This document shows positions 5,671-21,978 of a DNA stretch of 46,145 nt, piece by piece. The notes beneath the pieces are model-generated. The model searched no databases and was not told the origin of the DNA. It saw only the letters and a list, made by a program, of their open reading frames with translations. How positions within the stretch are numbered: the stretch's first letter is position 1; each line of letters starts with the position of its first letter. Source of the DNA: Oscillospiraceae bacterium (GTDB lineage: Bacteria; Bacillota; Clostridia; Oscillospirales; Ruminococcaceae); assembly GCA_009783205.1 (NCBI GenBank), contig WRHO01000012.1, positions 1 through 46,145 on the forward strand. The letters run 5' to 3'. The position numbers and the translations under genes were made by a program.

Positions 5671-5686
5671 ATAAAGGAGAACGATA

Positions 5687-6277
5687 ATGGAAAATAACAT
5701 TGAAGAAAACACGAAAGAAGAAAATACAACCGCAGAAATACCAATGCAAGAAACCGAAACTAAAAAAACCCAAACGCACATTTATAAAGCCGTTTTGATG
5801 GGGTTTGTCAGTTTAATATTGCTAATCTTCTTTTTCGCTTTCGCGTGGAACAGTCCGCGGCTTGAAAGAGGTGATGACTGGAAAATAATCAAAAAATTTG
5901 AAAGTAATACAGGGAATGACTTTTTTTCCGCAATGTTTGACGGTGACCCCAGAACACGCTGGACTACCGTGACTCCGCAAACCTCCGGTGATTATCTCAT
6001 GCTTGAGTTTTATGAGGCGGTCGACTTTAACCATATAATCTTAGAACCCGGCAGATATGAAAACGATTATCCGAAAGGTGTGCTGTTCATTTCCACTTCG
6101 CTTGACGGTGATGCGTATGAAGGTGTTAAATACATCCATGCAGACGATAATACCGATTTTATATTTGAGTCTGAGCCGTATCGTTTCATCAAGTTTGAAC
6201 TCACGATATCCGATGATAAAAAAGCATGGAGTATCGTTGATTTTACTTTTGATAAAATCGAATCTCAGCCAACATGA
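5687..6277 (+). CDS. Membrane-anchored discoidin-like (F5/8 type C) protein
   Basis: This protein of 196 residues starts with a very acidic, Thr/Glu-rich cytoplasmic tail of about 30 residues. A single membrane helix follows (about 33-54), then a compact outer domain. Residues about 68-190 look like a discoidin/F5-8C jelly roll: a FDGDPRTRW motif (the usual D-G-(N/D)-x-x-T-x-W signature), a strand reading DYLMLEFYEAVDFNHIILE and a terminal RFIKFEL strand. Such domains commonly bind carbohydrates. No catalytic residues are evident. The gene follows the GT-C-like gene by 16 bases with a good AAAGGAG site, and its stop overlaps the next start as ATGA. It may bind the polymer made by the operon or position the enzymes (inference). 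Confidence 0.7.
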   Translation: MENNIEENTKEENTTAEIPMQETETKKTQTHIYKAVLMGFVSLILLIFFFAFAWNSPRLERGDDWKIIKKFESNTGNDFFSAMFDGDPRTRWTTVTPQTSGDYLMLEFYEAVDFNHIILEPGRYENDYPKGVLFISTSLDGDAYEGVKYIHADDNTDFIFESEPYRFIKFELTISDDKKAWSIVDFTFDKIESQPT

Positions 6278-7410
6278 TGAACACTGCAAGTAAATTAAAC
6301 ATGACCGCGCCCTGTCATTTCGGGTTAGAAAAGACACTTTCGTTTGAAATAAGGCGGGCGGGCGGAGAGAATTTAGAAATCACAGACGGCAGAATCAACT
6401 TTGAGGGGATGCCTGAAGTCCTTGTTCGTGCAAATATAAGTTGTTCTGCCGCCGAGAGAATCGGTGTTATACTTGCACGATTTAAAGCGTATAGCTTCGA
6501 TGATGTTTTTGAACATATTAAGCGAATTCCTGTCAGCGATTTTCTTGACAAGAACGCGGCTTTCCCTGTTACGAAAGGACAATCGGTCAATTCAAAACTC
6601 ACAAGCATACCCGCGCTGCAGCGTACAGTTAAAAAAGCGTTAGCCGAAGCGATGAGCTCGGTTTATAAAACAAACACTCTTCCCGAAACGGGCGCGGTCT
6701 TCCCTGTGCGATTCTTTTTGCATAAAGATGAAATGACGGTTTTTATCGACTCATCAGGTGAGGGGCTTCATAAACGAGGCTATCGACGGCATTCCGGTAT
6801 CGCACCGATTAAGGAAACATTAGCGGCAGGAATTATTGATATTGCAAAAGTCAGAGAAAGCGACTGTATCATTGACCCTTTTTGCGGAAGCGGAACAATT
6901 CTGATTGAATCGGCTTTTAAAGCATTGAAGATTCCTCCGGGTATGAATCGCAGTTTCGCTGCTGAAAAATGGGATTTGTTTCCTGCTAAACTATGGGCAG
7001 AACAGCGTGAAAATCTACGCGCCGGTATTATAAAAGATACCGAATTTAAAGTATTCGGGTATGATATTGACCCTGACTGTGTAAAACTCACCCTTGAAAA
7101 TGCAAAAAAAGCGGGCGTTGAAAAGTATATCACAGCGGAAACGCGAGCAATTAAAGATTTTAATTTGGATATAACTCGTTTTTCTAAAATTATAACCAAT
7201 CCGCCCTACGCTGAACGGTTGTTGGAAAAGTCTGACACTGAACAAATTTATCGCGAAATGGGAGAAAAATTTTTTTGTGAAAATCATCACCGTGAAATGT
7301 ACATCATCACATCAGATATGGAATTTGAAGATTATTTCGGACGTAAAGCTAAGAAGAACAGAAAACTTTACAACGGTATGCTGATGTGCAGATTGTATAT
7401 GTATGTTTAA
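6274..7410 (+). CDS. THUMP-domain class I SAM-dependent rRNA methyltransferase (YpsC/RlmL-like)
   Basis: The 378-residue protein has an N-terminal ferredoxin-like/THUMP half (about 10-150) and a Rossmann methyltransferase half. DPFCGSG near 202 is the SAM-binding motif. NPPY near 308 is the catalytic motif of N2-guanine and related amino-methyltransferases. GLHKRGYRRHSGIAPI before it is the family signature of the UPF0020 group that methylates a 23S rRNA guanine. The length fits the stand-alone bacterial form, without the RlmK half found in enterobacteria. The ATG at 6274 overlaps the stop of the discoidin-like gene (ATGA), so translation is probably coupled. The ATG at 6301 would also give a plausible start. 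This housekeeping enzyme is the last gene of the operon and is followed by a strong terminator. Confidence 0.88.
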   Translation: MMNTASKLNMTAPCHFGLEKTLSFEIRRAGGENLEITDGRINFEGMPEVLVRANISCSAAERIGVILARFKAYSFDDVFEHIKRIPVSDFLDKNAAFPVTKGQSVNSKLTSIPALQRTVKKALAEAMSSVYKTNTLPETGAVFPVRFFLHKDEMTVFIDSSGEGLHKRGYRRHSGIAPIKETLAAGIIDIAKVRESDCIIDPFCGSGTILIESAFKALKIPPGMNRSFAAEKWDLFPAKLWAEQRENLRAGIIKDTEFKVFGYDIDPDCVKLTLENAKKAGVEKYITAETRAIKDFNLDITRFSKIITNPPYAERLLEKSDTEQIYREMGEKFFCENHHREMYIITSDMEFEDYFGRKAKKNRKLYNGMLMCRLYMYV

Positions 7411-7413
7411 GAT

Positions 7414-7470
7414 AAATCACCCCCCGTAAAGAAGGCACTGCCTTTCTTTATCGGGGGGATTCACTTTTTG
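7414..7470. terminator. Strong bidirectional hairpin terminator
   Basis: A long stem pairs CCCCCCGTAAAGAAGGCA with TGCCTTTCTTTATCGGGGGG around a minimal loop, and TTTTTG follows on the plus strand. It separates the convergent methyltransferase (plus) and recombinase (minus) genes. It also marks the left side of the accessory region. Confidence 0.85.
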
Positions 7471-7476
7471 TTTAAT

Positions 7477-9624
7477 CTACTCTTCCATCTGCTTACTGAA
7501 ATACATTGCTGCCGCGTTGACTAATGCTGTTTGTTCGGGATTGGCATATTCGTGCCCTTCCGCAGAAAGCATCATGACCGCACCGCTGACATCGCCTTGT
7601 GAAATAATCGGTGAACAAGCAATGGCATATCTGTCCATACCTTCTATCGGGTTGAGTTGCTTGTCTTCATATGACTTGTAAACGTGTGTTTTTCTCTGTT
7701 CAATCAAATCTTCCAGTGAGTTGGAAACACGCCTTTCGAGTATTTCCTTTTTTTGTATTCCCGAGGCCGCGATAACATGGTCGCGGTCACATATCACTGC
7801 AGGGCACCCGCCGATTCTCGACAGAACTTCGGCATATTGAGCCGCATTGCTGGAAATTTCACCCACCGGTGAATATTTTTTGAAGATTACTTCTCCGTCT
7901 ACATTGGTGTATATTTCGAGAGGGTCGCCTTCATTGATAACACTGATGCGGTATTCTTTGTCTTTTCGGTTCACTGAAGACTGGATTATATGCCCGAAAA
8001 CCTCCTCGGTGGAGCATTTGAGAATATGGTCAATATCGCTTTTTAGCTGAATTTCGATTCTATCCTCATAGACAGTGATTTTTTCTATAATCAGCTCAAT
8101 GTCGGACTTGTCTAATTTTTCTTTATTGAGCAGGTCGGCGAAAATATCCATTGCGTTTTTGGCAGTGCGGTTAATGCGAACGGCAGTATTACGGCGATTA
8201 GCGGTAAGTTCGATTTGGTTCTGCAAGCCCTCGATTCTATCGGCAAGTTCGTCAATCATCTCATCATATACTTCATCTACTATTAAGAGATTAGACGATT
8301 CGCCACCGGAGGCTCTCCGGTCGGGATTCCGCATAAGTTCGCGTGTTTTTTGACGGGCAAGCATTTTCATTTCGGCTTTGCTGTCGTCAATCTGTTGTTG
8401 AAGCATTGTGATTGTGTCGGTGCTTTCCTTGACGTGGATTTTTTCGTCTTTGATTGCTTCGTTAAGCAGAGCAAGCATTTCTGTGGAATTTTCCTTGACC
8501 TTTGCTATATACGATTTCAACAGTTTGTCAAGCGTTTCGGTTTTGGTATGGTGGGAAGTACAGCCTTTCAGTCCTCGCTTATGGTACGATGAACAGATAT
8601 ACGCGGGGTGGTCGGGATTGCTCCGTGAAAACATCGGCACACCACAGTCGCCACAGAATAAAAATCCCGAATAGTTATTGTCGTATTTCTTGACCCCTCT
8701 GTAATTGGAAGTCGAACGCTTTTTAAGCTGTTCTTGTGTGATTGTGAATGTTCGGTAGTCTATAATCGGCTCGTGATTTTTTTCAAAAACAATGTGTTCG
8801 CTATCGTCCGCCTTGACATCACCGCCGTTGATTTTTTTACGCTTATACTTCCCTTGCCGAAGTGTCCCGATATAGAAATCGTTACCAAGAATAGTCGAGA
8901 TTGTGATAATACTCCACGTTTCGTTGGTTTTGAGCTTGCACTCCGAACCATCGGATTCTCTCCGCATTTTTTCCGAAGTTCTCGGCGTGGGGATATGCTT
9001 GTCTGTCAGATGATTGGCGATTTTCTTGTAACCCCAACCGCTGTTATACAATGTAAAAACTTCACGCACGACATCTGCCGCAGATTCGTCAATTTGAAAC
9101 GCCATTGTCTTTGTGTTTGTAATCACATACCCATAAGGAACGGCACAAATCCATTTTCCCTCACTTTGCCGACGTTTGACTACGGATTTCACTTTCTTGG
9201 ACGTGTCGGTGACAGGCATTTCGTTGATGAGAAACCGAAACTGAATCGCTGTCCAGTCATCGTAAGTCGGGTAGTCGATGTTGTCGCCGATTGCGATAAT
9301 ACGCACTCCTGCGTCGCGTAAGTCTTCAAGCTCTACAAGTCCCTTGCTGTTTCGGCGGGAAAATCGTGAGAAGTCTTTTATTATAAGTATGTTGTAGCTG
9401 AGGTTCATCAGTTGAGGGCGGAGCTTCATATAGCCCTCGCGTTGCTCGAACGTGTAGCCGGAGCGGTCGCGGTCTTCGTAGAAGTCGAGTTCAACATCGG
9501 GGAATTTGCGGTTTACAAAGTCCGATATAATCGACTTTTGGTTCTCTATACTGGTGTTTTCTCTATCCATTTCCTCGTCAACCGAGATTCGGCAGTAGGC
9601 GGCGATTTTCACTTTGTTTTCCAT
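7477..9624 (-). CDS. Large serine recombinase with a C-terminal SpoVT-derived domain
   Basis: This 715-residue protein has four regions. Residues about 7-155 are a resolvase catalytic domain, with the catalytic serine in YCRIS. Residues 165-285 form a recombinase domain (PYGY...ILGNDFYIGTL). A zinc ribbon follows (FCGDCG...CSSYHKRGLKGC, about 300-365), then a coiled coil to about 490. From about residue 563 the sequence stops looking like a recombinase and reads EGDPLEIYTNVDGEVIFKKY...SPVGE, then VICDRDHVIAASG and a final FSKQMEE. This is the end of the AbrB domain plus the whole GAF-like domain of SpoVT, the forespore regulator. The AbrB half that contacts DNA is absent. The ATG at 9624 was chosen because GAGGTG lies 6 bases upstream; the GTG at 9633 overlaps that site. 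The fusion may reflect integration into a spoVT gene or a genuine sensor domain. Confidence 0.9.
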   Translation of the reverse strand: MENKVKIAAYCRISVDEEMDRENTSIENQKSIISDFVNRKFPDVELDFYEDRDRSGYTFEQREGYMKLRPQLMNLSYNILIIKDFSRFSRRNSKGLVELEDLRDAGVRIIAIGDNIDYPTYDDWTAIQFRFLINEMPVTDTSKKVKSVVKRRQSEGKWICAVPYGYVITNTKTMAFQIDESAADVVREVFTLYNSGWGYKKIANHLTDKHIPTPRTSEKMRRESDGSECKLKTNETWSIITISTILGNDFYIGTLRQGKYKRKKINGGDVKADDSEHIVFEKNHEPIIDYRTFTITQEQLKKRSTSNYRGVKKYDNNYSGFLFCGDCGVPMFSRSNPDHPAYICSSYHKRGLKGCTSHHTKTETLDKLLKSYIAKVKENSTEMLALLNEAIKDEKIHVKESTDTITMLQQQIDDSKAEMKMLARQKTRELMRNPDRRASGGESSNLLIVDEVYDEMIDELADRIEGLQNQIELTANRRNTAVRINRTAKNAMDIFADLLNKEKLDKSDIELIIEKITVYEDRIEIQLKSDIDHILKCSTEEVFGHIIQSSVNRKDKEYRISVINEGDPLEIYTNVDGEVIFKKYSPVGEISSNAAQYAEVLSRIGGCPAVICDRDHVIAASGIQKKEILERRVSNSLEDLIEQRKTHVYKSYEDKQLNPIEGMDRYAIACSPIISQGDVSGAVMMLSAEGHEYANPEQTALVNAAAMYFSKQMEE

Positions 9625-9657
9625 GTTGTTCACCTCGACTTAGATTAGTATATCAAC

Positions 9658-9761: not shown

Positions 9762-9992
9762 TTATAATTGTCTTTCTTCACCGAAGATTATATAGTCAAG
9801 CGATGTTTCAAGAACCATTATAATTCTTACCAATGAACGGAGGCTCGCCTTTTTCTTCCCTGTTTCAATATAACTGATAAAGGTATCATGTAAATCTGTC
9901 ATTTCCGCAAGATTTGCTTGTGTCATTTTTACAAGTCGGCGTGCGCTTTTTATACGCTTGCCAACTTGTTTATAATCGACTTCATTATACAT
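9762..9992 (-). CDS. Small XRE-family HTH regulator
   Basis: The protein is 76 residues of a single lambda-repressor-like helix-turn-helix domain. KQVGKRIKSARRLVKMTQANLAEMTDLHDTF covers the first three helices in pieces, and SYIETGKKKASLRSLVRI is the family recognition-helix and following region. The upstream frame extends to 10040, but the ATG at 9992 is preferred because AAAGGA lies 11 bases before it and the protein then begins at the domain. It lies between two divergent recombinase genes, the usual place for a repressor controlling excision or integration genes (inference). No effector domain is present. Confidence 0.8.
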   Translation of the reverse strand: MYNEVDYKQVGKRIKSARRLVKMTQANLAEMTDLHDTFISYIETGKKKASLRSLVRIIMVLETSLDYIIFGEERQL

Positions 9993-10080
9993 ATTGGTTA
10001 CTGTCCTTTCATGAAAAAGAGAATAATGACAGCATAACATATTTAGCAGAATAAAATTAAAAACTTGACCTACAGTCTAT

Positions 10081-10152: not shown

Positions 10153-11985
10153 ATGAAACAGGAAAATTCTAAAACATCAAAAGAAACAGAAAAGGAAAGA
10201 ATTCGTAAGCGTTACACAAAAGGCAGAGCGGAAAATGCAGAGTATATCCCCGCTAAAGAGCAAAAATCACTCTTTGATTCAGATGAAGAAATGCGGGTTG
10301 CCGTTTATGCACGAGTTTCAACGCTGAACACACAACAAACATCTTCACAGGTAATTCAAGAAAAGTATTATGAAGATTTTGTTTCACGCCAAAAAGGCTG
10401 GGAATTGGTAAATATTTACAGCGACGAGGGTATCAGCGGAACATCATTAAAGAATCGTGATGCTTTTAAGCAAATGATTGAGGATTGTCAAAAAGGCGGT
10501 ATTGACCTCATTGTTGTAAAAAGTGTTTCGCGTTTCACACGCAATGTAAAAGATGGTCGTGCCAGTATTGATATGCTTACAGATTTGAATCCGCCCGTCG
10601 GTGTTTGGTTTGAAAATGAAAGAATTTATTCGCTAAGTAACGACAGAGCCTTTATCTTAGATTTAATGATGTCGCTTGCTGCAGAAGAATCACGAGCAAA
10701 AAGTGCCGCAATGGAGATTTCATTAAAAATGAGGTTTGAACATCAAATATTACTTACGCCACCGCTGCTTGGATATGATAACGATGAAAATGGGGAGCTT
10801 ATTGTTAATGAGGATGAAGCAAAGATAGTTAAACTCATATTCCGTATGTATCAACGCGGGTACAGCACAAAAGATATAGCCGAAAAATTAACTGCTCTCG
10901 GATTAAGTACAAAAGCAGGAAATAAAATATGGTCTCAAGGGTCTGTACTCGGAATTCTACAAAATGAGAAACATTGCGGTAGGGTTCTTACATGGAAGAC
11001 CTTCACAACCAGTTATAAAACGCATAAGAAAAGAAAAAACAGAGGAGAACGTGACCAATATCTTTATTATGACCATCACGAGGCAATTATTTCACCTGAT
11101 GATTTTAATGCAGTTCAAAAAATGATTGCTAATTCAAAGTATGGCGGTCACAGCTTTATGCCTGAGCTATACACGATAACAGAGGGTTTTTTAAAAGGTT
11201 TTGTATCGGTTAATCCGCGATGGGCGTCATTTACACCTGATGACTATCGTATTACTTCTAAAAAAGTCAGTATATCAGATATTATTGAAAAGAAACCGAC
11301 AATCAACAATAATTATCAAGGTTACGAAATAGTTCGTTCTCAATTCTTAGGAAGGTTTAATGTAGTCAGCATAACGCTTACTCCTACGAGAACACGAATT
11401 GATACAATAGAAAATAAAGATGTGCCGGGTGAAAAATTCGAGAAAAGTTATACTATTGCTCCAAGAATCCGAATCAGCGGTGCAACTATAAAGAAGTTTA
11501 GTTTTTCAGAATACGTAGAACTGCTTATACACCCACTAAGAAAACTTGCCGCTGTGAGAATTTGTGAAAACACACACAAAAACGCTATTAAATGGGGAAT
11601 TCAAAAAAATGGCAGTATATACTCGCGGTGTATCGGTGGTACAGCCTTTGTTGACACGTTATATGGTTTATTTGACTTGAAGCCAAGTTTAAAATACAGG
11701 TTTCGCGGTGCTGTAAAGAAGATAGACACAGAGAACATTGCCTTGTTTGATTTGAGCGAACCCGAAATATTGAGTGAATCAGGTGTAATATACCCTATAG
11801 AATGGGAAGACAGCTTTGGAAAAGATTATTATAATACTTCTGACAATAATATTAATGAAATTGGTTCAAAACTTCGTAAATATAACACAGAACCTGATAT
11901 TTATCCGACTTCTGACAAAACAATCACAAGTGAAATAAAACAACTCATAGAGTATTTCAACGAAAATAGCGAGGAAATATCATGA
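10153..11985 (+). CDS. Serine recombinase lacking the zinc ribbon, with a novel C-terminal half
   Basis: The protein has 610 residues. A basic N-terminal extension precedes the resolvase domain (about 48-180), in which VAVYARVS carries the catalytic serine and SVSRFTRN is the conserved loop. The recombinase domain follows (205-325, with LGYDND and ILQNEKHCGRVL). Where most large serine recombinases have a cysteine zinc ribbon and coiled coil, this one has about 260 residues without a CxxC pair, starting near ITEGFLKGFVSVNPRW. Residues about 438-541 resemble the product of the next gene. The ATG at 10153 has GGAGG 6 bases upstream; the TTG at 10147 overlaps that site. The stop overlaps the next ATG (ATGA), so the operon is translationally coupled. 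The family is common in gut-type Firmicutes elements from memory, but its mechanism is not something the sequence settles. Confidence 0.85.
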   Translation: MKQENSKTSKETEKERIRKRYTKGRAENAEYIPAKEQKSLFDSDEEMRVAVYARVSTLNTQQTSSQVIQEKYYEDFVSRQKGWELVNIYSDEGISGTSLKNRDAFKQMIEDCQKGGIDLIVVKSVSRFTRNVKDGRASIDMLTDLNPPVGVWFENERIYSLSNDRAFILDLMMSLAAEESRAKSAAMEISLKMRFEHQILLTPPLLGYDNDENGELIVNEDEAKIVKLIFRMYQRGYSTKDIAEKLTALGLSTKAGNKIWSQGSVLGILQNEKHCGRVLTWKTFTTSYKTHKKRKNRGERDQYLYYDHHEAIISPDDFNAVQKMIANSKYGGHSFMPELYTITEGFLKGFVSVNPRWASFTPDDYRITSKKVSISDIIEKKPTINNNYQGYEIVRSQFLGRFNVVSITLTPTRTRIDTIENKDVPGEKFEKSYTIAPRIRISGATIKKFSFSEYVELLIHPLRKLAAVRICENTHKNAIKWGIQKNGSIYSRCIGGTAFVDTLYGLFDLKPSLKYRFRGAVKKIDTENIALFDLSEPEILSESGVIYPIEWEDSFGKDYYNTSDNNINEIGSKLRKYNTEPDIYPTSDKTITSEIKQLIEYFNENSEEIS

Positions 11986-12374
11986 ATGAACCTACTATTA
12001 CATTCAAACATGGGCGGGTGTGGTTTAATATGGCTTGCTTAAAAGAGCTTGCGGATACAGATTATATTAGATTCGTTATTAATAGCGATAAACAGAAATT
12101 GCTTATAGAACACTCTAATGGGGAAGAAAGTAATGAAGGTCGATGGTGCAGTTGGAATTCTAAGAAACGCAAACCTAAAGCTATACCATGTATCGAGTTT
12201 TTTAGGAAAATAATCAATCTTATGAATTGGAATGATGAATACCGTTACAAAATAATCGGTGAATTCATATATAAAGGAGAAAGGATTTCTATTATGTTTG
12301 ACTTGAATAGTGTACTAATTTTCAAGCCTAATAAAATAATAACGGAGGAACAAAACAATGAACAGCAATTATAA
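11982..12374 (+). CDS. Small protein paralogous to the C-terminal domain of the upstream recombinase
   Basis: This is a 130-residue protein. It aligns by eye with residues about 438-541 of the adjacent recombinase. The shared spacing runs from a hydrophobic strand before a Phe-containing turn (WFNMACLKEL against ATIKKFSF), to YIRFVINS against YVELLIHP, a Trp after a charged loop, YRYKIIGEF against KYRFRGAV, and IMFDLNS against ALFDLSE. It therefore looks like a stand-alone copy of the recombinase's accessory domain, possibly a DNA-binding or subunit-contact module (inference). It has no recombinase catalytic residues. It overlaps the recombinase gene by 4 bases and the following gene by 17, so the proteins are probably made in fixed ratio. 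Confidence 0.7.
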   Translation: MNEPTITFKHGRVWFNMACLKELADTDYIRFVINSDKQKLLIEHSNGEESNEGRWCSWNSKKRKPKAIPCIEFFRKIINLMNWNDEYRYKIIGEFIYKGERISIMFDLNSVLIFKPNKIITEEQNNEQQL

Positions 12375-13038
12375 AATAGCTATGGGTTTTCGCAATACTG
12401 AAATAACGATTGAAGATATTAAAACATTAGAGGATAAAATTTCACCGGAATGTCGTTACTATTTAATAGGGCTTCTTTTTCGTTATGAACTGTCAAAAAA
12501 AACATTAGAAGAAACAATAATCTCATTAACAACAAGAATAGGTCGAAACTTTAATTACGTTTCTCAAACTGTTGTGCATAGCGGTCATTATGTAGATGCA
12601 ATCGGGCGTTTGGAAAATCTTGTTCCTGAACTTATTCCGCTTATTTTTGAAAGAAAGACAAGATTATCAATAGAGAATACTATGATTTTATCAAAAAAAG
12701 AGATTAACGAAATTCATATTATTCTTGAAAAGCTTACCGATGAAAACAAAAAAATATACGAAGTATTTCCGGAGCAGCTTCAAAAATCACCCTCAAGAAA
12801 AAAATCAAAAACTACCGTGAAAGATACACCCACTTATGACCCGGATGCACAAATTTCGAGTTTGACTTATACTGTGCCTTCTTGGCTTAGTGTAATTGAT
12901 AAAGCCTTTATGAATACAGATTTCGGCAATATTTCATCTAAAGCACGATATAAGTTTATAAAAGAATTGACCTTATTAAGGGAAACTGTTGATATATTCC
13001 TTGAAATGATTAGAGAGGAGTTACAAGCAAATGGTTGA
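12358..13038 (+). CDS. ParB/KorB-HTH-like protein
   Basis: This 226-residue protein has no obvious catalytic motif. Residues about 45-110 resemble the helix-turn-helix core of ParB/KorB: an R-I-G-x-N-F-x-Y-V-S recognition region, then an all-helical stretch ending in LVPELIPLIFERKTRLSIEN, close to the PELLELV...GKLS pattern after the ParB HTH. A basic Ser/Lys linker (about 143-160) leads to a helical C-terminus that could dimerise. It overlaps the upstream gene by 17 bases and the downstream gene by 8, and has GGAGG 9 bases before its ATG. Next to it is a separate gene with the ParB N-terminal fold, so the two may form a split ParB. The assignment is by pattern only and is moderately sure. 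Confidence 0.5.
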   Translation: MNSNYKIAMGFRNTEITIEDIKTLEDKISPECRYYLIGLLFRYELSKKTLEETIISLTTRIGRNFNYVSQTVVHSGHYVDAIGRLENLVPELIPLIFERKTRLSIENTMILSKKEINEIHIILEKLTDENKKIYEVFPEQLQKSPSRKKSKTTVKDTPTYDPDAQISSLTYTVPSWLSVIDKAFMNTDFGNISSKARYKFIKELTLLRETVDIFLEMIREELQANG

Positions 13039-13825
13039 TTTAAATAAATTTATTCCGCCTGTGCGAATTGAATTGATTCCAATAAAAAATTTAGTTTCTA
13101 ATCAAGTGTATCAAAGGCACTTATCATTGCGTCACATTCAACGGATGGTATCCGATTTTTATCTGTATCAAATTAATCCGGTAAAAATAAGTTACCGTGA
13201 TAATTTATATTATGTAATCAACGGTCAGCACACAATAGAGGTTATAGCCGCAGTTTCCGAATCACGTGAAACACCCGTATGGTGTATGATTTATGATGAT
13301 TTAAATTATGAACAGGAAGCACATATTTTTGCCAATCAACAGCGATACCAAAATCAATTATCTTCATACGACCTTTTTAATGCAGATATAGAAGCCGGTG
13401 ACGATAATTCAATCATTATTAAAGAATTAGTCGAATCATACGGGTTGAAAATCACACCTAAACATGGTGTTTGTTCAATCGGGGCAGTAAACTGTCTGTT
13501 GCGTATTTATAATAAGTATGGGTACCATGTTCTTGACAGAACATTACGACTTACTGTCGGAACGTGGGAAGGGGTTCCACAATCACTGGCAGCGAGTGTT
13601 TTGAGAGGTATTGCCCATATAATCGTTACATTTGGAGATTCCCTGAAAGATGACCGTTTTATTCAATGTCTTAGTAAAATCTCCGCGCTTGAAATAATTC
13701 GCGACGCTAAAGCAAGAAACTCAGGAATTGTGGGTTACTCAGAAATTATATTAATAAATTATAATAAGGGTAAACAGAAAGGGTTGCCTATGGGGTTATT
13801 GCATGACAAGAAAATAAACTGTTGA
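13031..13825 (+). CDS. ParB N-terminal domain-like protein (DUF6551-like)
   Basis: The protein is 264 residues. It opens like a ParB/sulfiredoxin-fold domain: IELIPIKNLVSNQVYQRH (ParB motif: I-x-x-I-x-x-N-x-x-Q-x-R), then ISYRDNLYYVINGQHTIEVI near residue 62. The GQHT sits where ParB has its nucleotide-binding GERR/GxHR motif. EQEAHIFANQQRYQNQ matches the E-x-A...N-x-x-R helix of the fold. The C-terminal 120 residues are helical and unassigned. No ParB helix-turn-helix is present; that role may be taken by the preceding gene. It ends the recombinase operon, with an 8-base overlap upstream, and is followed by a convergent small gene. Roles in DNA clamping or in modulating recombination are inference. 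Confidence 0.6.
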   Translation: MVDLNKFIPPVRIELIPIKNLVSNQVYQRHLSLRHIQRMVSDFYLYQINPVKISYRDNLYYVINGQHTIEVIAAVSESRETPVWCMIYDDLNYEQEAHIFANQQRYQNQLSSYDLFNADIEAGDDNSIIIKELVESYGLKITPKHGVCSIGAVNCLLRIYNKYGYHVLDRTLRLTVGTWEGVPQSLAASVLRGIAHIIVTFGDSLKDDRFIQCLSKISALEIIRDAKARNSGIVGYSEIILINYNKGKQKGLPMGLLHDKKINC

Positions 13826-13834
13826 TACACGTAA

Positions 13835-14041
13835 TTAATTAGAACGGTTATTACGTAATAGATAAGATGTATTCGCTTTTAAATCATCGTTTCCGGAGCA
13901 GAATACTGCGACGGTATATTTTTTTGCTTTATATTCTTCAAAGAGCGGTTTAAGCGCATTTTGTATAAGCGGATTATGTTTTTCAGAATTTGTAAGCCAT
14001 ATTTTAGCTATACGCTCAGATTTTAAGACATTTATTTCCAT
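13835..14041 (-). CDS. Small conserved mobile-element protein of unknown function
   Basis: The 68-residue frame has strong coding support from an AAGGAGGG ribosome site 6 bases before its ATG and a near-perfect promoter upstream (14170-14197). The sequence has a strand-turn-helix look (KIWLTNSEKHNPLIQ, then KKYTVAVFCSGNDDL, ending in a basic tail). From memory this resembles short proteins found in clostridial conjugative or integrative elements, but no function can be given. It is convergent with the recombinase operon and divergent from the XRE regulator, which probably controls it. Confidence 0.65.
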   Translation of the reverse strand: MEINVLKSERIAKIWLTNSEKHNPLIQNALKPLFEEYKAKKYTVAVFCSGNDDLKANTSYLLRNNRSN

Positions 14042-14092
14042 AATCGCCCTCCTTTTATATAGGGATTCTTCCCTATTACTCGAAAGTTATTC

Positions 14093-14121
14093 TTGACACG
14101 TCCTGCAGAACATGATAGAAT
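14093..14121 (+). promoter_or_regulatory. Promoter of the XRE regulator gene
   Basis: TTGACA (14093-14098) and TAGAAT (14116-14121) are 17 bases apart on the plus strand. The transcript would begin near 14128, immediately before a GAACATT element, leaving a leader of about 125 bases. Confidence 0.65.
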
Positions 14122-14128
14122 AAGAAAA

Positions 14129-14227
14129 AGAACATTATTATTTTCGCGTTCTTTTTCGTTCTGATTACCATTATACTCATATTTTCGGGCTTGTCAAATC
14201 GAAACGAACTAAAAACGAACAATGTTC
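14129..14227. promoter_or_regulatory. Repeated GAAC/GTTC operator array between divergent promoters
   Basis: GAAC or its complement GTTC occurs at about 14130, 14148, 14158, 14205, 14217 and 14224. The two right-hand CGAAC copies and the two left-hand CGTTC copies are each spaced about one helical turn. GAACAATGTTC (14217-14227) is a palindrome. The array brackets the minus-strand promoter and lies just downstream of the plus-strand promoter, so the XRE protein probably controls both genes through it (inference). Confidence 0.5.
14170..14197 (-). promoter_or_regulatory. Consensus promoter for the 68-residue gene
   Basis: On the minus strand there is a perfect TTGACA (14197-14192) and a perfect TATAAT (14175-14170) with a 16-base spacer. 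It points at the small gene whose start is at 14041, giving a leader of about 120 bases that also carries GAAC repeats. Confidence 0.7.
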
Positions 14228-14254
14228 TAAAACAACACATAAAGAGGTGGTATT

Positions 14255-14929
14255 ATGCCGAAACATGATGTGCAAAGTATAGGGAACCGGATTAGAGAAT
14301 TGCGGGAAAATCAAGGGTGGACACAGGAGGATTTAGTTGAGGAACTGAAGACATACGAGCGAGTGGAGCGTTCAACGCTCGCAAAATGGGAAACAGGCAG
14401 ACAGGATTTTAAGACGAAACACATCATCGCTTTGGCTGAAATCTTCGGTGTTACATCTGATTATCTGCTCGGATTATCGAGTACACCGTCAACCGACCCA
14501 AACATAAAAGCGGTCTGCGATTATACCGGACTTGACGAAGCGGCGGTTGAATTTTTGCATGATGAACCCGATTCAATATCATTGGAAATCATAAATCAGC
14601 TTATTAAAAGTTACGAGTTTTGGGATATTCTTGATGAGCTCCAACAAATTCAAATTCTATCAACAATGATAAAAAATGATTGTTATTCAAAAGCCGATGA
14701 GCAGTTTGACACGCTCAAGGAATGTATACAATTTTTGGATTCTTATTATGTGAAAAATCCCAAATCCAAGAACAGCTTGAAACAATTTATGGAACACAAG
14801 AAGGAACTGAAATTATCGCAATTCGGTTGTGATAATTCCTTCAAAGACATTGTTAAGGCGTTTGTTGACGGCATAGAATTAACGCCGTTTTATTTTGATA
14901 AAGATGAAAATAACGACACGCTTGAATAA
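14255..14929 (+). CDS. XRE-family transcriptional regulator
   Basis: This is a 224-residue protein. Residues about 9-70 form a lambda-repressor-type helix-turn-helix (IGNRIRELRENQGWTQEDL, then RSTLAKWETGR as turn and recognition helix, then AEIFGVTSDYLLGL as the usual closing helix). The remaining 150 residues are acidic and helical with no peptidase (Ser-Lys) motif, so it is not a LexA/CI-type self-cleaving repressor. The start has AGAGGTGG as ribosome site. It diverges from the small 68-residue gene across the GAAC-repeat region, which suggests autoregulation, and is closed by a hairpin terminator. It is probably the master regulator of the accessory element (inference). Confidence 0.85.
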   Translation: MPKHDVQSIGNRIRELRENQGWTQEDLVEELKTYERVERSTLAKWETGRQDFKTKHIIALAEIFGVTSDYLLGLSSTPSTDPNIKAVCDYTGLDEAAVEFLHDEPDSISLEIINQLIKSYEFWDILDELQQIQILSTMIKNDCYSKADEQFDTLKECIQFLDSYYVKNPKSKNSLKQFMEHKKELKLSQFGCDNSFKDIVKAFVDGIELTPFYFDKDENNDTLE

Positions 14930-14985
14930 GGAAATCAAGCTTACAATTTTTATAAATTTCTTTTTCAGGGCAAGTAACAAAAATG

Positions 14986-15018
14986 AAAAACTGTGCTTTA
15001 TAGTCAGCACAGTTTTTT
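14986..15018 (+). terminator. Rho-independent terminator of the XRE gene
   Basis: AAAAACTGTGCT pairs with AGCACAGTTTTTT around an eight-base loop, followed by a second T-run. It lies 57 bases after the stop of the regulator gene. Confidence 0.85.
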
Positions 15019-15091
15019 GATTTTTAACTTCGGCGTTTTTTCGAAAGAGCGATTTTATTGTTTTGAAAAATATGTGAATCGTAAAAATAGG

Positions 15092-15300: not shown

Positions 15301-15386
15301 TGTCATGTATGATGTAAATGATAATTATTTTATAAAAGCCTATAACTAATTCATTCAGTTTTTGGAAAAATTTATATGGGAAATGC

Positions 15387-15415
15387 TTGACTTTATTTAT
15401 ATATTGTGTTATCAT
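15387..15415 (+). promoter_or_regulatory. Promoter of the restriction-endonuclease-like gene
   Basis: TTGACT (15387-15392) and TATCAT (15410-15415) are 17 bases apart. The leader of about 35 bases carries AAGGA 10 bases before the TTG start. Confidence 0.65.
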
Positions 15416-15454
15416 ATAAAATATGCATCTACATCTTGAAAGGATAAAACGGTC

Positions 15455-16396
15455 TTGAGAAAAAATGATAAGGTAATAACTTTAAATTCAAACATACGTA
15501 TTATGAGCAATGGAGAAAGAAAAACCCACTCGAAAGCTTCCGAAGAATATATCCATGTGCAATTTCAATATGATGATAATACTTGGGACGGTTGGGTTCC
15601 GGTAGAATATCGTCGCACAGGTGTTTCTATACAGAGTCAAGACGAATTATACGAACATCTTAACTCAGTATATGAGCAATTACGTCCGAAGAATCTTGAA
15701 TCATGGTTATCGGCACAGAATTTGTTTTGGGAAGAAAAAGGACGTGCCGCAGTTACTAAGGGATTCTTTGACAGTTTAGTAAAAGGTGATTGGCAATGCG
15801 TAAACTGTACATTACCATCAAATCCGAACTGGGCACGAAGAATTCAAGATTTGAAAGAGTTCGGTTATACGCTCTCTACCGACACAAAGCGTTACTGTCC
15901 GCGTTGTAATGCTAATAAAACACATATTCTTTTATTACCTGTTGAGCGTGGCTGTGCAGAGGGAAATGGTTATGAAACATGGTCTCCTGCATTACGAAAA
16001 CGTATTCTCAATGTCTTAGAAAAATTTGATGTGTATGAATGTGTAAAAAATCCTCATTCATTACCCGACCATAAATACTCAGAAATTCGTTGGGGAAGTT
16101 CTGTAAAAGGCGAAAATCCTGACAATATGACAGACGAAGAAATTCGCAGTAAATTCCAATTACTATCAAACCAAAGAAATCAACAAAAACGTGAAATTTG
16201 CCGTAATTGCTATCAGACCGGAAAACGCGGTACGATTTACGGTATACCTTTCTTTTACGAGGGAACGGAAGAGTGGGACGATAGTATACCGAAAACAGGT
16301 AAAGAAGCAGAGCGAGGTTGTGTTGGCTGTGCATGGTATGATATTGCCGAATGGAGAAAGCGTTTGATAGATAAACTCAAACAAAACGAAGAATAG
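15455..16396 (+). CDS. Probable type II restriction endonuclease with zinc-binding cysteines
   Basis: The 313-residue protein starts at a TTG that has AAGGA 10 bases upstream. It has two cysteine pairs in the middle (WQCVNC near 112 and YCPRC near 148) and a second set at the end (ICRNC near 247 and GCVGCAWYD near 291). Near these lies a conserved-looking block, IYGIPFFYEGTEEWDD, followed by GKEAERGC. Placement 21 bases before a C5-cytosine methyltransferase gene points to a restriction endonuclease partner. I do not recognise the exact family and cannot identify a PD-(D/E)XK or HNH site with certainty. Whether it is active is in doubt because the methyltransferase is broken. Confidence 0.55.
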   Translation: MRKNDKVITLNSNIRIMSNGERKTHSKASEEYIHVQFQYDDNTWDGWVPVEYRRTGVSIQSQDELYEHLNSVYEQLRPKNLESWLSAQNLFWEEKGRAAVTKGFFDSLVKGDWQCVNCTLPSNPNWARRIQDLKEFGYTLSTDTKRYCPRCNANKTHILLLPVERGCAEGNGYETWSPALRKRILNVLEKFDVYECVKNPHSLPDHKYSEIRWGSSVKGENPDNMTDEEIRSKFQLLSNQRNQQKREICRNCYQTGKRGTIYGIPFFYEGTEEWDDSIPKTGKEAERGCVGCAWYDIAEWRKRLIDKLKQNEE

Positions 16397-16417
16397 AAAT
16401 AAACAGGAGATTATAAT

Positions 16418-17025
16418 ATGTATTCAGTTGGTAGTGTGTGTTCGGGCATTGAAGCGGCTTCGGTTGCATGGCGTCCGTTTGGATTTAAATTCGAGTGGTT
16501 TTCTGAAATAGCGGATTTTCCGTCAAGAGTTTTAAAAGAAAAATATCCTAATACACCAAACATAGGTGATATGAACGGAATCCCTAAATTGATACGCAAC
16601 CAAGAAATTACTGCACCGGATATTATTTGCGGCGGAACACCGTGTCAAGCCTTTTCTCTTGCGGGGTGGAAAAACGGATTAAATGATTTACGCGGTAATC
16701 TGACAATGAATTTCATTGATATGGGCTTGAAAGTAATATAAATATATCACCACAACCCGAAAATTGTGTGTTTTCTAAAATATCTTCAATTATATCGCCT
16801 AACGCTCCCGAAGAAATATATATTTCTCCTACGGGGTGTTATGGTATTATTAGGCGTAAAAATGAGCGGAATTTGCGTATAAATCCACGTTTGGAGGAGA
16901 TTTTGCTTAAAGTTTCTTCTACATGGTCTTCTGATGAGATAGAAAGGCAGTCAAGGGTACAAAAGCGTGGGCAGTTTAGTGAACCTGCCAAAGGAGATAA
17001 CCGGTTAGCTTTTATAGATTGTTGA
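16418..17025 (+). pseudogene. Broken C5-cytosine DNA methyltransferase
   Basis: The first frame (16418-16741) encodes the N-terminus of a phage-type Dcm enzyme: motif I as VCSGIEAASVAWRPFGF, then motif IV with the catalytic cysteine as GGTPCQAFSLAGW. It stops after 107 codons, just after the GNLTMNFIDMG strand. A second frame, shifted by one, continues with SPQPENCVFSKI and the typical tail of these enzymes (YISPTGCYGIIRRKNER), ending at 17025. The middle, with motif VI (ENV), motif VIII (QRR) and the target-recognition domain, is missing. The simplest reading is an internal deletion that also shifted the frame. Complete enzymes of this kind are about 300-450 residues. A good AGGAGA ribosome site precedes the first frame. 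Confidence 0.75.
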
Positions 17026-18866: not shown

Positions 18867-19517
18867 ATTAACAAAAATAGCGGCAACGTCAATAAAAACA
18901 ACAAGAATAATTTAGCCGTGAACGGCGATATTCGCGAGGCACAAGTGCGTTTGGTTGCGGAAGACGGCGAGCCTCTCGGCATTATGTCCGGAAAAGATGC
19001 TCAGGCTCGGGCGGATAATGCTAATCTCGACCTTGTTATGATTGCGCCACAGGCGTCACCGCCCGTTTGTAAGATTATGGACTACGGGAAGTATCGTTTT
19101 GACCAATCTAAAAGGGAAAAAGACCAACGTAAGCATCAACAGCAGACCGAGTTAAAAGAGGTCAGGCTGTCTCTTAATATTGACGACCATGATTTCATGA
19201 CGAAGGCTAACCACGCTAAAAAATTCCTTAAACAGGGCAGTAAGGTAAAGGTCACGATTCGGTTTAAGGGCAGAGAGGTTACGCACTTTAACTTAGGACA
19301 AAAGCTTATGGAGCGTTTTAAACTCGAATGTGCCGAATTCGGTGTTTCGGATGAAAAACCGTCAAAGTTAGAAGGAAGGTTTTATACCTCTGTTATATCT
19401 CCAAAGGCTGACGCGGTTTCTGCAAAGGCGAAAGCTAAAGAACAACCAAGAGAACAACAAAAAGAACAACAAAAAGAACAACAAAAAGAACAACAAAAAA
19501 CAAACGACGAGACTTAA
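18867..19517 (+). CDS. infC: Translation initiation factor IF-3, AUU start
   Basis: This is IF-3 of 216 residues. It binds the 30S subunit, prevents premature 50S joining and proofreads the initiation codon. An N-terminal domain (AQVRLVAEDGEPLGIM, then the linker KIMDYGKYRFDQSK) and a C-terminal domain (EVRLSLNIDDHDF, HFNLGQKLMERF) are complete. The annotated-looking GTG at 18918 lies too far inside. In frame upstream there is an ATT at 18867 preceded by AGGGGGGTG, matching the classical AUU start of infC, by which IF-3 limits its own synthesis. The last 25 residues are a low-complexity EQQK repeat made from a 12-base tandem repeat (about 19438-19500), which is unusual for IF-3. First gene of infC-rpmI-rplT. 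Confidence 0.92.
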   Translation: MNKNSGNVNKNNKNNLAVNGDIREAQVRLVAEDGEPLGIMSGKDAQARADNANLDLVMIAPQASPPVCKIMDYGKYRFDQSKREKDQRKHQQQTELKEVRLSLNIDDHDFMTKANHAKKFLKQGSKVKVTIRFKGREVTHFNLGQKLMERFKLECAEFGVSDEKPSKLEGRFYTSVISPKADAVSAKAKAKEQPREQQKEQQKEQQKEQQKTNDET

Positions 19518-19591
19518 TAATTGGGTATGTTAGAGGAAGCCTAAGAGAATTGTCAAAATAATTAAAAAAGCAAGAATGAAGGAGGGAACAA

Positions 19592-19792
19592 ATGAAAAAC
19601 AAGATAAAAACTCATAGCGGGGCGAAAAAACGCTTTAAGCTGACCAAATCGGGAAGAGTTAAGTATCAACAGACGAATCGTCGACACAGACTTACACAAA
19701 AAGCTACAAAGAGAAAACGTATCAACCGCAACGGTGCGTATATTGATAAATCTAACGAGGCACAGGTTAAGGCTTTATTGCCTTATAAATAA
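19592..19792 (+). CDS. rpmI: 50S ribosomal protein L35
   Basis: The 66-residue, very basic protein begins MKNKIKTHSGAKKRFKLTKS, the standard L35 start, and contains the HRLTQKATKRKR core. It binds 23S rRNA in the large subunit. The length is normal for the family. AAGGAGGGA precedes the ATG. It is the middle gene of the operon, 74 bases after infC, a spacing in which many bacteria keep part of the L20-controlled regulation. Confidence 0.97.
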   Translation: MKNKIKTHSGAKKRFKLTKSGRVKYQQTNRRHRLTQKATKRKRINRNGAYIDKSNEAQVKALLPYK

Positions 19793-19867
19793 TAAAATAA
19801 TAAGGAACATTAGCGCGGAATTATTCCGTGTTTATACTAAACAAAAAGTAAGGAGGACTTAGAAAAA

Positions 19868-20221
19868 ATGGCAAGAGTAAAAGGTGCGCTTGCGACCCGC
19901 AAAAGAAGGAACGCCGTATTAAAATTAGCAAAAGGCTATTGGGGCGGAAAAAGCAAGCTTTTTAAGACCGCAAAGGAAGCGGTTTATAAATCGGGGCAAT
20001 ATGCTTATATAAGCAGAAGACTGAAGAAAAGGGATTTCAGACGGCTTTGGATTACGAGAATTTCCGCCGCTTGTAAATTAAACGGCATGAACTATTCTAC
20101 GTTTATTAACGGGCTTAAAAAAGCAAATATAAGCCTTAATCGCAAAATGTTGTCCGAGATAGCAATTAATGACCAAGCGGGATTCACACAGCTTTGCGAA
20201 AAAGCAAAAGCGGCTGTATAA
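19868..20221 (+). CDS. rplT: 50S ribosomal protein L20
   Basis: The 117-residue protein has the L20 features: a basic N-terminal extension ([36 protein letters not shown]), the [11 protein letters not shown] helix and [19 protein letters not shown] in the globular part. It is needed early in 50S assembly and represses its own operon through the leader. The length is standard. GGAGG lies upstream of the ATG. It ends the operon; a palindromic repeat and then a hairpin terminator follow. Confidence 0.97.
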
Positions 20222-20383
20222 TATACTCCTTAACCACTAAATATTACACCGTTTTTTGTATATTTTCCGTCATACTGCGTTGATTTTTTTCTTAAATATA
20301 AGCGTATATTCGCGAAAAAATCGCCTTGTCTGACGAAAAATATTCTGCAAAATCATTGCAAAATTTAGCAGTTAAGGAGTATA
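20222..20383. repeat. MITE-like palindromic repeat, copy 1
   Basis: The ends are 13-bp perfect inverted repeats (20222-20234 and 20371-20383), extended by a matching CTAAAT/ATTTAG. Inside, TATTTTCCGTCA and TGACGAAAAATA, and GATTTTTT and AAAAAATC, also pair, so the whole 162 bases can fold into one long hairpin. A core of about 80 bases recurs in opposite orientation at 21838-21915. Confidence 0.7.
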
Positions 20384-20385
20384 AT

Positions 20386-20419
20386 AAAGCAGTATAGTAT
20401 TTAATACTATACTGCTTTT
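20386..20419. terminator. Bidirectional terminator between rplT and a convergent gene
   Basis: AAAGCAGTATAGTAT pairs perfectly with ATACTATACTGCTTT around a TTA loop, with T-runs on both strands. It serves the plus-strand ribosomal operon and the minus-strand gene ending at 20426. Confidence 0.85.
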
Positions 20420-20425
20420 CTAAAA

Positions 20426-20968
20426 TTATTTAATCTCGTTTTTGTATAATACATGGATTGAAATACTTGCAACTAATGCTAATAATATTTTATGAGCTAT
20501 TGTTGTCGGGAAGAAAAGGATAAGCGTTAATGCGGTTATGCACACCGAAACACAAACCGTAAACATTTTTTTAAGCCGAAATTTTTTACGGGGCGGTTCG
20601 GGCATCTCTGTTGTATTAACGGCGAGTATATCAAAAGGTAACGGCGTCCCCGTTTGTGATTTTGTCACAATATCGACCGTTTTCAACAAGAGGGGGAGCC
20701 TTTCTTGTGACATAAGGTATTCTGAAAAGTAAAGGGATATTTTGGACTTTTCAACATTAAGCGAGACAATGGCGTTTTTTGGAAGAAAATCGAGTTCGAG
20801 TGTTTTTATCGGTTGCTCACAGAAAACGGTCATTATAAGCTCCGACGCGGGTTTATCGTTGCGTATTATCACATTATAACCGTTAATCGTTCCCGTTAAG
20901 GTGAGCTCGTTGGGATTATATACCAGCCCGAGCTTCCCGTTTAATTTAGATAATTCGGAATATTTCAT
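20426..20968 (-). CDS. Membrane protein of unknown family
   Basis: This is a 180-residue protein I do not recognise. About 115 residues form a soluble N-terminal domain of alternating strands (KLGLVYNPNELTLTGTINGY, VIIRNDKP, TLELDFLP), a Pro-rich basic linker follows (EPPRKKFRLKK), and two membrane helices fill the last 45 residues. The domain would face the cytoplasm. The frame is open to 21151, but that part overlaps the divergent methyltransferase gene. The ATG at 20968 is preferred because a promoter sits immediately upstream, with the predicted transcript start at or one base from the ATG. No Shine-Dalgarno is present. It is divergent from the RNA methyltransferase gene. Confidence 0.6.
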   Translation of the reverse strand: MKYSELSKLNGKLGLVYNPNELTLTGTINGYNVIIRNDKPASELIMTVFCEQPIKTLELDFLPKNAIVSLNVEKSKISLYFSEYLMSQERLPLLLKTVDIVTKSQTGTPLPFDILAVNTTEMPEPPRKKFRLKKMFTVCVSVCITALTLILFFPTTIAHKILLALVASISIHVLYKNEIK

Positions 20969-20975
20969 GCAACAA

Positions 20976-21004
20976 ATATTACCATAATAGAATCGGGTTG
21001 TCAA
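20976..21004 (-). promoter_or_regulatory. Promoter abutting a start codon (possible leaderless mRNA)
   Basis: On the minus strand a perfect TTGACA (21004-20999) and TAATAT (20981-20976) are 17 bases apart. Only seven bases separate the -10 box from the ATG at 20968, so transcription should begin at the start codon or a base before it. Confidence 0.6.
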
Positions 21005-21005
21005 G

Positions 21006-21791
21006 ATGAACATTACATCAAAACAAAACACAATTATAAAAAGCTTTAAAAAGCCGGGCAATTTTATAGTAATCGAAGGGGCAAAATTAACCTCCGAAGC
21101 GGTTGCTTCGGGGTTCGTTCCGCAAAACGCTTTGTTCACACAAAAAGCCAAGGCGGTTTACCCCGATTTATTTAAAAGCCTTTCCGCTTTTGTCATAAGC
21201 GACGATTTGAGCGAATATATTTCCGATACAAAGACTCCGCAGGGGGTGTTTGTTATGTTCAATCGGCGGGAAACGCATATTGATTTTTCGGGAAAGAAGC
21301 GACTTATGCTCCTCGACTCTGTACAAGACCCGGGAAACGTAGGAGCGATTCTTCGCTCATGCGAGGCATTTGGTTTTGACGGTGCAATTCTTTCCGACGA
21401 CTCGGCAGATATGTACAGTCCGAAGGTAATAAGGGCGTCCGCCGGCTCCGCATTAAGACTTCCCGTTCAAAGGGGAAATATAAAAAATGCAATTAACGAA
21501 ATAAAAAAATCGGGGTTTAAAGTATATGCCGCGGCGTTGGACGAAAACGCCATACCTCTCAACCGACTGTCAACTGTCAATTGTCAACTGTCAACTGTAC
21601 GTCAATCGTCAATTGCCGTTGTCATCGGTAATGAGGGGAAAGGCGTTTCCAAAGAAACGCTCGCTTTATGCGACAATAAGCTTTATATTCCGATAAAAGG
21701 CGCGGAATCGCTTAATGCGGCGGTTGCGGCGGGGATTATATGTTACGAATTGACAGTTGACAGTTGTCGGTTGACGGTTGTTCATATATAA
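21006..21791 (+). CDS. SpoU/TrmH-family RNA 2'-O-methyltransferase carrying repeat-derived inserts
   Basis: The 261-residue protein has a small N-terminal substrate-binding domain and a SPOUT trefoil-knot methyltransferase domain. Motif 1 is QDPGNVGAILRSCEAFG (about 115), motif 2 VIGNEGKGVS (about 207) and motif 3 IPIKGAESLNAAVAAGI (about 230). Such enzymes put a 2'-O-methyl group on rRNA or tRNA using SAM. Between the motif 1 region and motif 2 is an odd stretch, NRLSTVNCQLSTVRQSS, and the C-terminus reads ELTVDSCRLTVV. Both are encoded by copies of a TCAACTG-type heptamer in opposite orientations and are probably insertions in surface loops. No ribosome site is evident; the ATG overlaps the divergent promoter. 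Confidence 0.88.
   Translation: MNITSKQNTIIKSFKKPGNFIVIEGAKLTSEAVASGFVPQNALFTQKAKAVYPDLFKSLSAFVISDDLSEYISDTKTPQGVFVMFNRRETHIDFSGKKRLMLLDSVQDPGNVGAILRSCEAFGFDGAILSDDSADMYSPKVIRASAGSALRLPVQRGNIKNAINEIKKSGFKVYAAALDENAIPLNRLSTVNCQLSTVRQSSIAVVIGNEGKGVSKETLALCDNKLYIPIKGAESLNAAVAAGIICYELTVDSCRLTVVHI
21558..21616. repeat. Heptamer repeat block A inside the RNA methyltransferase gene
   Basis: Tandem heptamers of the TCAACTG/TCAATTG type encode the LSTVNCQLSTV stretch. Bases 21564-21582 are the reverse complement of 21748-21766 with one mismatch. Confidence 0.75.
21747..21783. repeat. Heptamer repeat block B (inverted) at the end of the RNA methyltransferase gene
   Basis: The same heptamer in the opposite orientation (TTGACAG type) encodes the last residues of the protein. 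With block A it could form a 19-bp stem in the mRNA. Confidence 0.7.
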
Positions 21792-21837
21792 TTTTAGAAG
21801 TTGTGTTCATAGACGAATCGTTTAAATTTCGAGCGAA

Positions 21838-21915
21838 TTTTTCGTCAAACAAGGCAAAAATTTTGCGAATATCCGTTGATATTTAAAAAATTTTTAACGC
21901 AGTATGGCGGAAAAT
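21838..21915. repeat. MITE-like palindromic repeat, copy 2 (core)
   Basis: The segment from TTTTTCGTCA through ACAAGGC, GCGAATAT, ATATTTAA and ACGCAGTATG to CGGAAAAT matches the reverse complement of the core of copy 1 (20222-20383) with scattered differences. It keeps its own internal pairing (GCGAATTTT and its complement). The outer terminal repeats of copy 1 are not recognisable here. It lies between the RNA methyltransferase gene and topA. Confidence 0.65.
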
Positions 21916-21978
21916 TCGCCGAAAGATGAGCGGTGATGTCTATGAATACAGCTTCTCACAGGGGGGAATCTTTGTCGA

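Follow-up and report, generated by a model that had tools for sequence, protein, structure and literature searches.

A serine recombinase fused in frame to SpoVT: the probable attL side of a mobile element that splits spoVT in Clostridia

In a 46,145-nucleotide stretch of contig WRHO01000012.1 from an Oscillospiraceae bacterium (assembly GCA_009783205.1; hereafter the window), a large serine recombinase gene runs in frame into the 3' half of spoVT. This fusion is very probably the attL side of a mobile element that uses its recombinase to enter spoVT at a specific site; the copy in the window has probably decayed or been rearranged. The element would be a new variant of skin-type gene splitting, in which the integrase is joined to the back half of its target gene. 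No element in spoVT was recognised among the papers listed by a literature search with most subscription journals outside its coverage, and the word spoVT was absent from PMC10747680 and PMC5595907 in spot checks.

The fusion gene and its junction

The fusion and its parts lie on the minus strand, as follows.

7477..9633 (-): fusion ORF, a large serine recombinase followed by the C-terminal part of SpoVT (718 aa from GTG at 9633; 715 aa from ATG at 9624)
7930..9633 (-): recombinase part, the element side of the junction, 49–57% identical to 13 likewise-fused recombinases
7477..7929 (-): host spoVT 3' half, 150 codons, from GDPLEIYT to the stop codon
7922..7929 (-): attL core GGCGACCC, with the predicted crossover dinucleotide GA at 7926–7925, placed from the dyad centre in relatives
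7930..7950 (-): element-side att arm cgcatcagtgttatcaatgaa, read as codons RISVINE

Pfam recognised Resolvase (residues 10–161, E = 3.7e-14), Recombinase (184–306, 2e-21), and Zn_ribbon_recom (322–376, 3.7e-11) in this single protein, the domain set of a large serine recombinase, followed by SpoVT_C (592–717, 5.3e-35). The best recombinase model was NCBIfam CcrB (E = 1.7e-29), with 102.9 bits against a cut-off of 900. The SpoVT model TIGR02851 of NCBIfam matched residues 562–717 with its positions 23–180 of 180 (E = 2.1e-38), at 132 bits against a whole-protein cut-off of 235.9, and no match to its positions 1–22, the start of the AbrB part, was found in the fusion ORF, which does not contain a full SpoVT in the sense of an AbrB DNA-binding half plus a GAF-like domain with TIGR02851 above its cut-off. 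The SpoVT contribution starts at about SpoVT codon ~31, and sequence comparison matched it to the solved SpoVT chains 2w1t (E = 6.5e-26) and 2w1r. The first-pass annotation of this DNA had read the gene as a serine recombinase that ends as SpoVT, a description with which the SpoVT_C, TIGR02851, and structural-chain matches agree, and the kinship to SpoVT that it had assigned to residues 563–715 holds in the profile search; the junction that it had put at base ~7935 was right as to the approximate place, the exact core lying a few bases away at 7929–7922 (-). As in skin-type elements, the recombinase gene adjoins the att site, and the core common to the two ends is short.

Among the matches listed, a spoVT 3' half lay inside an open frame of 718–811 aa in at least 14 of 149 genomes, the source genome included. 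The 14 fused recombinases were used as queries in a scan of species genomes, which gave at least 568 relatives; the best 80 of these, together with four viral contigs (59–63% identity over most of the query, from a scan giving 57 loci), make up a set of 84 loci that were selected for likeness to the query. A fifth close viral locus, L204, was omitted as a fragment only. The recombinase and SpoVT were fused in frame in 74 of the 84 loci (L126 included), mostly from Ruminococcus and other Clostridia, so that the architecture for which the first-pass annotation had proposed a search does recur; in four of the 74 (L112, L119, L168, and L169), the contig ends within the SpoVT part. Among the unfused loci, L087 and L160 carry the element inverted in spoVT, and it is because of this reversal that their recombinases, like that of L237 (G158), are unfused; L091, L115, and L123 end in other sequence, L115 being frameshifted too; L116 and L118 are frameshifted before an intact spoVT half, by decay or sequencing error; L133 ends in a tail of the kind described below; and L136 and L170 are cut by the contig end. 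The same junction was found in isolates, such as R. bicirculans 80/3, whose two spoVT halves lie 20.1 kb from each other on chromosome II. With a second copy on contig C24 of the source genome and the recurrence in 74 of 84 loci, the junction is beyond chance and is not a single assembly error. The element is present in many gut Clostridia, cultured isolates included, and may explain annotated Ruminococcus genomes that seemingly lack an intact spoVT.

Split spoVT, attachment site, and recombinase tail in relatives

Twenty genomes picked from the recombinase loci were checked for a split gene. In 10 of these, the two spoVT halves shared a contig and a strand, the 3' half being the fused one, and lay 12.5–57.2 kb apart (G149, 20.1 kb; G150, 14.0; G152, 54.3; G153, 18.2; G156, 17.9; G157, 12.5; G163, 24.0; G166, 12.9; G167, 57.2; and G164, 35.9, measured from the nearer of two 5' halves), which argues that the element splits spoVT. 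The halves are likewise on the same contig and strand in G072, 32.8 kb apart, so that an element splitting a sporulation gene, as skin does, is seen in 10 of the 20 genomes and in G072. The halves were on different contigs in five of the 20 (G151, G154, G155, G161, and G162) and on opposite strands in G165. In G158 the element is inverted and the 3' half unfused; G160 has a second 5' half besides a full spoVT; in G159 spoVT is intact and the recombinase lies at another place; and G168 showed a 5' half only. The 5' halves of relatives end in REGDP and then continue into a tail.

At locus L067 (G023, 5578–8699), a tailed 5' half lies ~2.5 kb upstream of a full spoVT, with similar sequence before both as judged by eye, as if the insert had carried its own spoVT 5' end and so restored the gene; L074 (G114) and G160 resemble this arrangement. 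Two 5' halves per contig were found in L234 (G164; at 1519 and 9045) and L071 (G147; at 135 and 10651), which we read as tandem insertions at the same site.

An inverted repeat across the core arms, centred between GGCG and ACCC (core offset 4.0), was found in 18 of 19 arm pairs. The arms paired at 0.61–0.94 of positions in the 18 pairs, compared with a mean of 0.47 and a maximum of 0.72 for shuffled right arms; given this maximum, single weak arm pairs are not significant alone, and more weight falls on the centre that the pairs have in common. The one pair that deviates (0.39) involves a 5' half in G147 that belongs to another insert. The putative attP would be an inverted repeat with this same centre, through which the integrase gene runs, and the variant cores of G161, G150, and G152 fit a crossover at GA. 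In L051 (G014) and L053 (G009), an intact spoVT has GTP in place of GDP, which alters the att core; these two genes are possibly immune to insertion.

Of the 29 tails found after the core, the 22 that were analysed stop after 22–33 codons, a range that is partly a choice because seven tails of 8, 9, 20, 21, 39, 56, and 58 codons (other insert types, cut or inverted, or longer) were left out. The two other frames stop after 2–16 and 7–79 codons, the latter often being open too. Codon-position difference rates beyond the att arm were 0.58, 0.46, and 0.66 for the first, second, and third positions, the second differing least and the third most, and the rates within the arm were flat (0.32, 0.35, and 0.33). 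This codon-position pattern, together with the stop positions of the 22 tails, suggested that the short stretch after the core is probably the coding end of the free integrase, which would be exchanged for the SpoVT part on integration. At locus L136, recombinase, core, and tail follow one another, the order expected of an excised circle or a tandem copy, but the tail is not identical to the attR tail of that genome, one base being different.

Taken together, these data led us to propose that the large serine recombinase would target spoVT at its Gly-Asp-Pro codons, with the core given above and a predicted crossover at GA. In the sequences of relatives, the element separates the 5' half of spoVT (ending REGDP) from the 3' half (starting GDPLEI), and the recombinase gene continues in frame across the att core. 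In the free circle, the recombinase would end in a short tail, mostly 22–33 aa, encoded just past attP; with attP lying within the integrase gene, integration would swap the C-terminus of the enzyme, the tail being replaced by SpoVT residues ~31–178 and left on the orphan 5' half, and excision would restore both genes.

The second explanation in the first-pass annotation was a stable fusion whose GAF-like domain couples excision to sporulation. Along these lines, the SpoVT part might be functional in the fused enzyme, its GAF-like domain sensing a sporulation signal or oligomerising, so that the short-tail integrase becomes a regulated excisionase. We consider this possible rather than probable. 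The fusion is in frame in 74 of 84 loci despite a varying linker length, and the tail of the free form looks coding; however, the tail needs the same frame, so the fusion may be incidental, and its recurrence could follow from site and frame alone. The fusion is also absent from the inverted (L087 and L160) and frameshifted (L116 and L118) insertions. The spoVT 3' halves of four close split pairs (L047/L050, L143/L146, L096/L103, and L111/L114) showed omega values of 0.013–0.055, as a functional fusion would have them, but a recent integration would leave the SpoVT half intact regardless, and values this low would be equally expected from recent insertion or from regular restoration of the gene. 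In seven pairs, moreover, the omega of the split half was above that of the recombinase (0.157 versus 0.037 in L148/L156). When split and intact copies were compared broadly by dN/dS, no difference appeared (median omega 0.38 and 0.36), but this comparison was unusable, as its pairs had reached saturation and it included no closely related intact pairs; the close split pairs were used instead. The more specific idea that the free short-tail enzyme integrates and that the integrated form, with SpoVT as sensor, is a sporulation-tuned excisionase seems doubtful to us; if it were true, the C-terminal part of the host regulator would itself set the time at which that regulator is restored.

Some near-identical recombinases are joined to diverged spoVT genes, so elements have moved between species. 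Among 30 close pairs of fused genes, 3 of which were not computable, the recombinase dS was less than half of the spoVT dS in 8 of 27 (recombinase versus spoVT: 0.049 versus 1.70 in L096/L097 and 0.073 versus 1.21 in L097/L103; 0.088/0.56, 0.129/1.31, 0.168/1.18, 0.168/0.43, 0.473/1.26, and 0.529/1.11 in the others). It was not less than half in the other 19 computable pairs, as older residence would give.

The copy in the window and its missing 5' half

The surroundings of the fusion in the window are as follows.

6274..7410 (+): host flank, RlmL-type methyltransferase, a single match in the assembly
9762..10040 (-): HTH (XRE-type) regulator
10153..11985 (+): second large serine recombinase (Resolvase and Recombinase domains)
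11982..13825 (+): three ORFs 3' of the second recombinase (130, 226, and 264 aa), the last being DUF6551
13835..14041 (-): 68-aa companion protein, candidate recombination directionality factor, on the recombinase strand and 4.2 kb upstream of the recombinase
14255..14929 (+): HTH regulator
15503..16396 (+): ICEA-domain protein, presumably restriction-enzyme-like
16418..17022 (+): broken C-5 cytosine methylase (107-aa N-terminal piece; Pfam DNA_methylase 2–97 of 324)
18984..24060 (+): host flank, infC (starting at 18984), rpmI, rplT, RNA methyltransferase, topA

The window to the right of about 17.1 kb is host chromosome; infC has a single match in the source genome, G000, and the order infC-rplT-topA is conserved in three relatives (the names rpmI, rplT, and RNA methyltransferase were assigned by eye from the sequence). 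Since the infC/topA side is host chromosome, the mobile part of the window spans no more than about 11 kb, and we dropped the reading in which the window simply stops within a long element. The last recognised mobile sequence ahead of the host genes is the broken methylase, which by eye also has an out-of-frame remnant. Two related, divergent proteins starting MSMPKFP lie at 17096–18172 (-) and 18288–18620 (+), without a Pfam match. The second serine recombinase with its three downstream ORFs (10153–13825) recurs beside such recombinases in the viral contigs L169 and L170.

The spoVT 5' half was not found between the fusion and infC, nor elsewhere in the window, nor in the G000 assembly (1.91 Mb in 49 contigs; completeness 96.6%), which was searched with a profile, at the protein level, and with two DNA patterns; a full spoVT was not found in G000 either. 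The first-pass annotation had offered as one explanation that an element integrated inside spoVT and its recombinase reads through into the host's 3' half. This explanation stands for the family, with 10 of 20 genomes and G072, GDP-ending 5' halves, and an attP-like repeat in its favour, and falls short in the window, where there is no 5' half. The annotation had itself found no 5' half there, which our search bore out, and had concluded that the explanation needs a later rearrangement or decay; infC at 18984, with no 5' half before it or in the assembly, points the same way. It had further suggested looking in the genome for a complete spoVT and a 5' fragment, in place of which two 3' halves came to light, one in the window and one on contig C24. 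With no 5' half found in G000, the insertion in the window is not demonstrable as a split gene; given this and infC 11 kb from attL, the window copy can be classed only as a one-sided remnant of such an insertion.

On C24, the 3' half again follows a recombinase tail, and the contig stops 108 bases into the recombinase. The two copies mismatch at 3 of these 108 bases on the recombinase side, and their 150 spoVT codons differ in 3 amino acids and 68 silent codons; silent changes relative to the spoVT of G021 number 67 and 68, equal to the distance between the window and C24. With recombinase sides near-identical and spoVT silently diverged, alike elements are joined to two diverged spoVT genes. 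The 3' half on C24 is adjoined by cysK, as in G061 and G072. Given infC 11 kb away, the missing 5' half, and the second, diverged 3' half on C24, the window copy has probably lost or rearranged its other end. The likeliest reading is that it was an insertion into a second, diverged spoVT, of which the 3' half and recombinase would have been kept between rlmL and infC, the left end with the 5' half being gone. A point against our best explanation is that it does not account for two diverged 3' halves in G000. An inverted match to the attR arm at 15291 was set aside, neither the core nor spoVT adjoining it.

Alternatively, the fusion could be a passenger, the second serine recombinase having carried the unit with a foreign 3' half into the rlmL-infC interval, where it is now a stable gene of a composite element. 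The adjoining second recombinase module agrees with this, as do the window 3' half, silently as far from the C24 half as from another species, and the rlmL regions of seven close relatives, examined and without spoVT. Against it, a related module stands beside a SpoVT-fused recombinase in L169, and also in L170, where the contig ends at the core, so that this module need not be the mover; moreover, no direct repeat of at least 11 bases was found between 7380–7490 and 12000–30000, where the search for a second-boundary repeat gave one inverted 12-mer. In G104, from another family, rlmL and spoVT lie on one contig 5.2 kb apart, and their closeness could be old. We regard this passenger origin as unlikely, and return to insertion into a second spoVT as the preferred reading. 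An assembly error at the junction, or a foreign contig in the bin, might be suspected in a 49-contig assembly in which C24 stops just where the copies become alike, but was rejected as highly improbable, because the junction occurs in two variants (three base differences on the recombinase side and many in spoVT) and in many independent genomes, isolates among them, and because rlmL, infC (C12), and dapB (C24) are each a single match in G000.

Known gene-splitting elements, companion protein, and cargo

Like the spoVT element, gin, which lies in gerE of Bacillus cereus ATCC10987 (PMC5595907), interrupts the gene of a transcription factor for sporulation, encodes more than one serine recombinase, has a short core in an inverted-repeat att site, is not phage-like, and was probably transferred between strains. 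It differs in that gerE is a mother-cell gene and that both its excision and its directionality factor, GirX, have been demonstrated, whereas the spoVT element is known from sequence and has a candidate factor only; in the available text of PMC5595907, no read-through of a recombinase across att into the host gene is described. The elements skin (sigK), SPbeta (spsM), vfbin (spoVFB), and yin (yabG) likewise bear a recombinase and lie inside a sporulation gene, as far as the accessible parts of PMC10747680 and PMC5595907 describe them; here, in contrast, the target is spoVT and the integrase gene would span the putative attP.

The companion protein of ~70 aa, which may be a directionality factor, is common to eight of nine elements by BLAST. 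A profile, rebuilt once with hits from the same 84 loci, found it in 73 of them, including L125, the locus of the ninth element; it lies on the recombinase strand in 72 loci and 82–272 bases upstream in 65, and four of the 11 negative loci had less than 800 bases of upstream sequence at hand. Among 44 members scanned, there were no Pfam matches, one PHROG match (0.0017), and three NCBIfam matches (best 0.0022), and no directionality-factor model matched in PHROG or NCBIfam. Cargo varies among the nine elements compared, with type I restriction-modification and GmrSD in G150, kinase, PP2C, and VWA proteins in G149, and ABC and two-component genes, assigned by eye, in G166.

The spoVT element resembles SCC cassettes (ccr recombinases) in combining a large serine recombinase with cargo such as the type I system of G150 and in its apparent tandem insertions at one site, and CcrB is its best recombinase model, below the cut-off. 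In mycobacteriophage BPs, attP lies inside the repressor gene, and SSV-type integrases are split by integration, so that in both, as here, integration alters the C-terminus of a protein encoded across attP. Those systems use tyrosine integrases, whereas here a serine integrase would lose its tail and gain a domain that belongs to a sporulation regulator of the host.

Excision in the mother cell costs nothing, because the mother cell dies. Known gene splitters act on mother-cell genes such as sigK and gerE, according to the available text of PMC5595907. In C. difficile, spoVT depends on sigma-G, a forespore factor, as stated in the accessible part of PMC3738446; the mother-cell logic of skin does not carry over to such a gene, a point against our best explanation, and excision in spoVT would change the spore's own genome. 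How bacteria with the spoVT element cope with forespore excision is a testable question. In G000, sigG was matched over its whole length (E = 2.4e-123), though under the curated cut-off, which was reached in none of the 149 genomes. It was not clear in four of the 14 fusion genomes (G034, G050, G058, and G068) and partial in G061, some of these genomes being incomplete. Among 18 relatives without a spoVT match in the matches listed, 13 were also without a strong sigG match; G033, G039, G046, and G103 have a strong one, and G056 a partial one.
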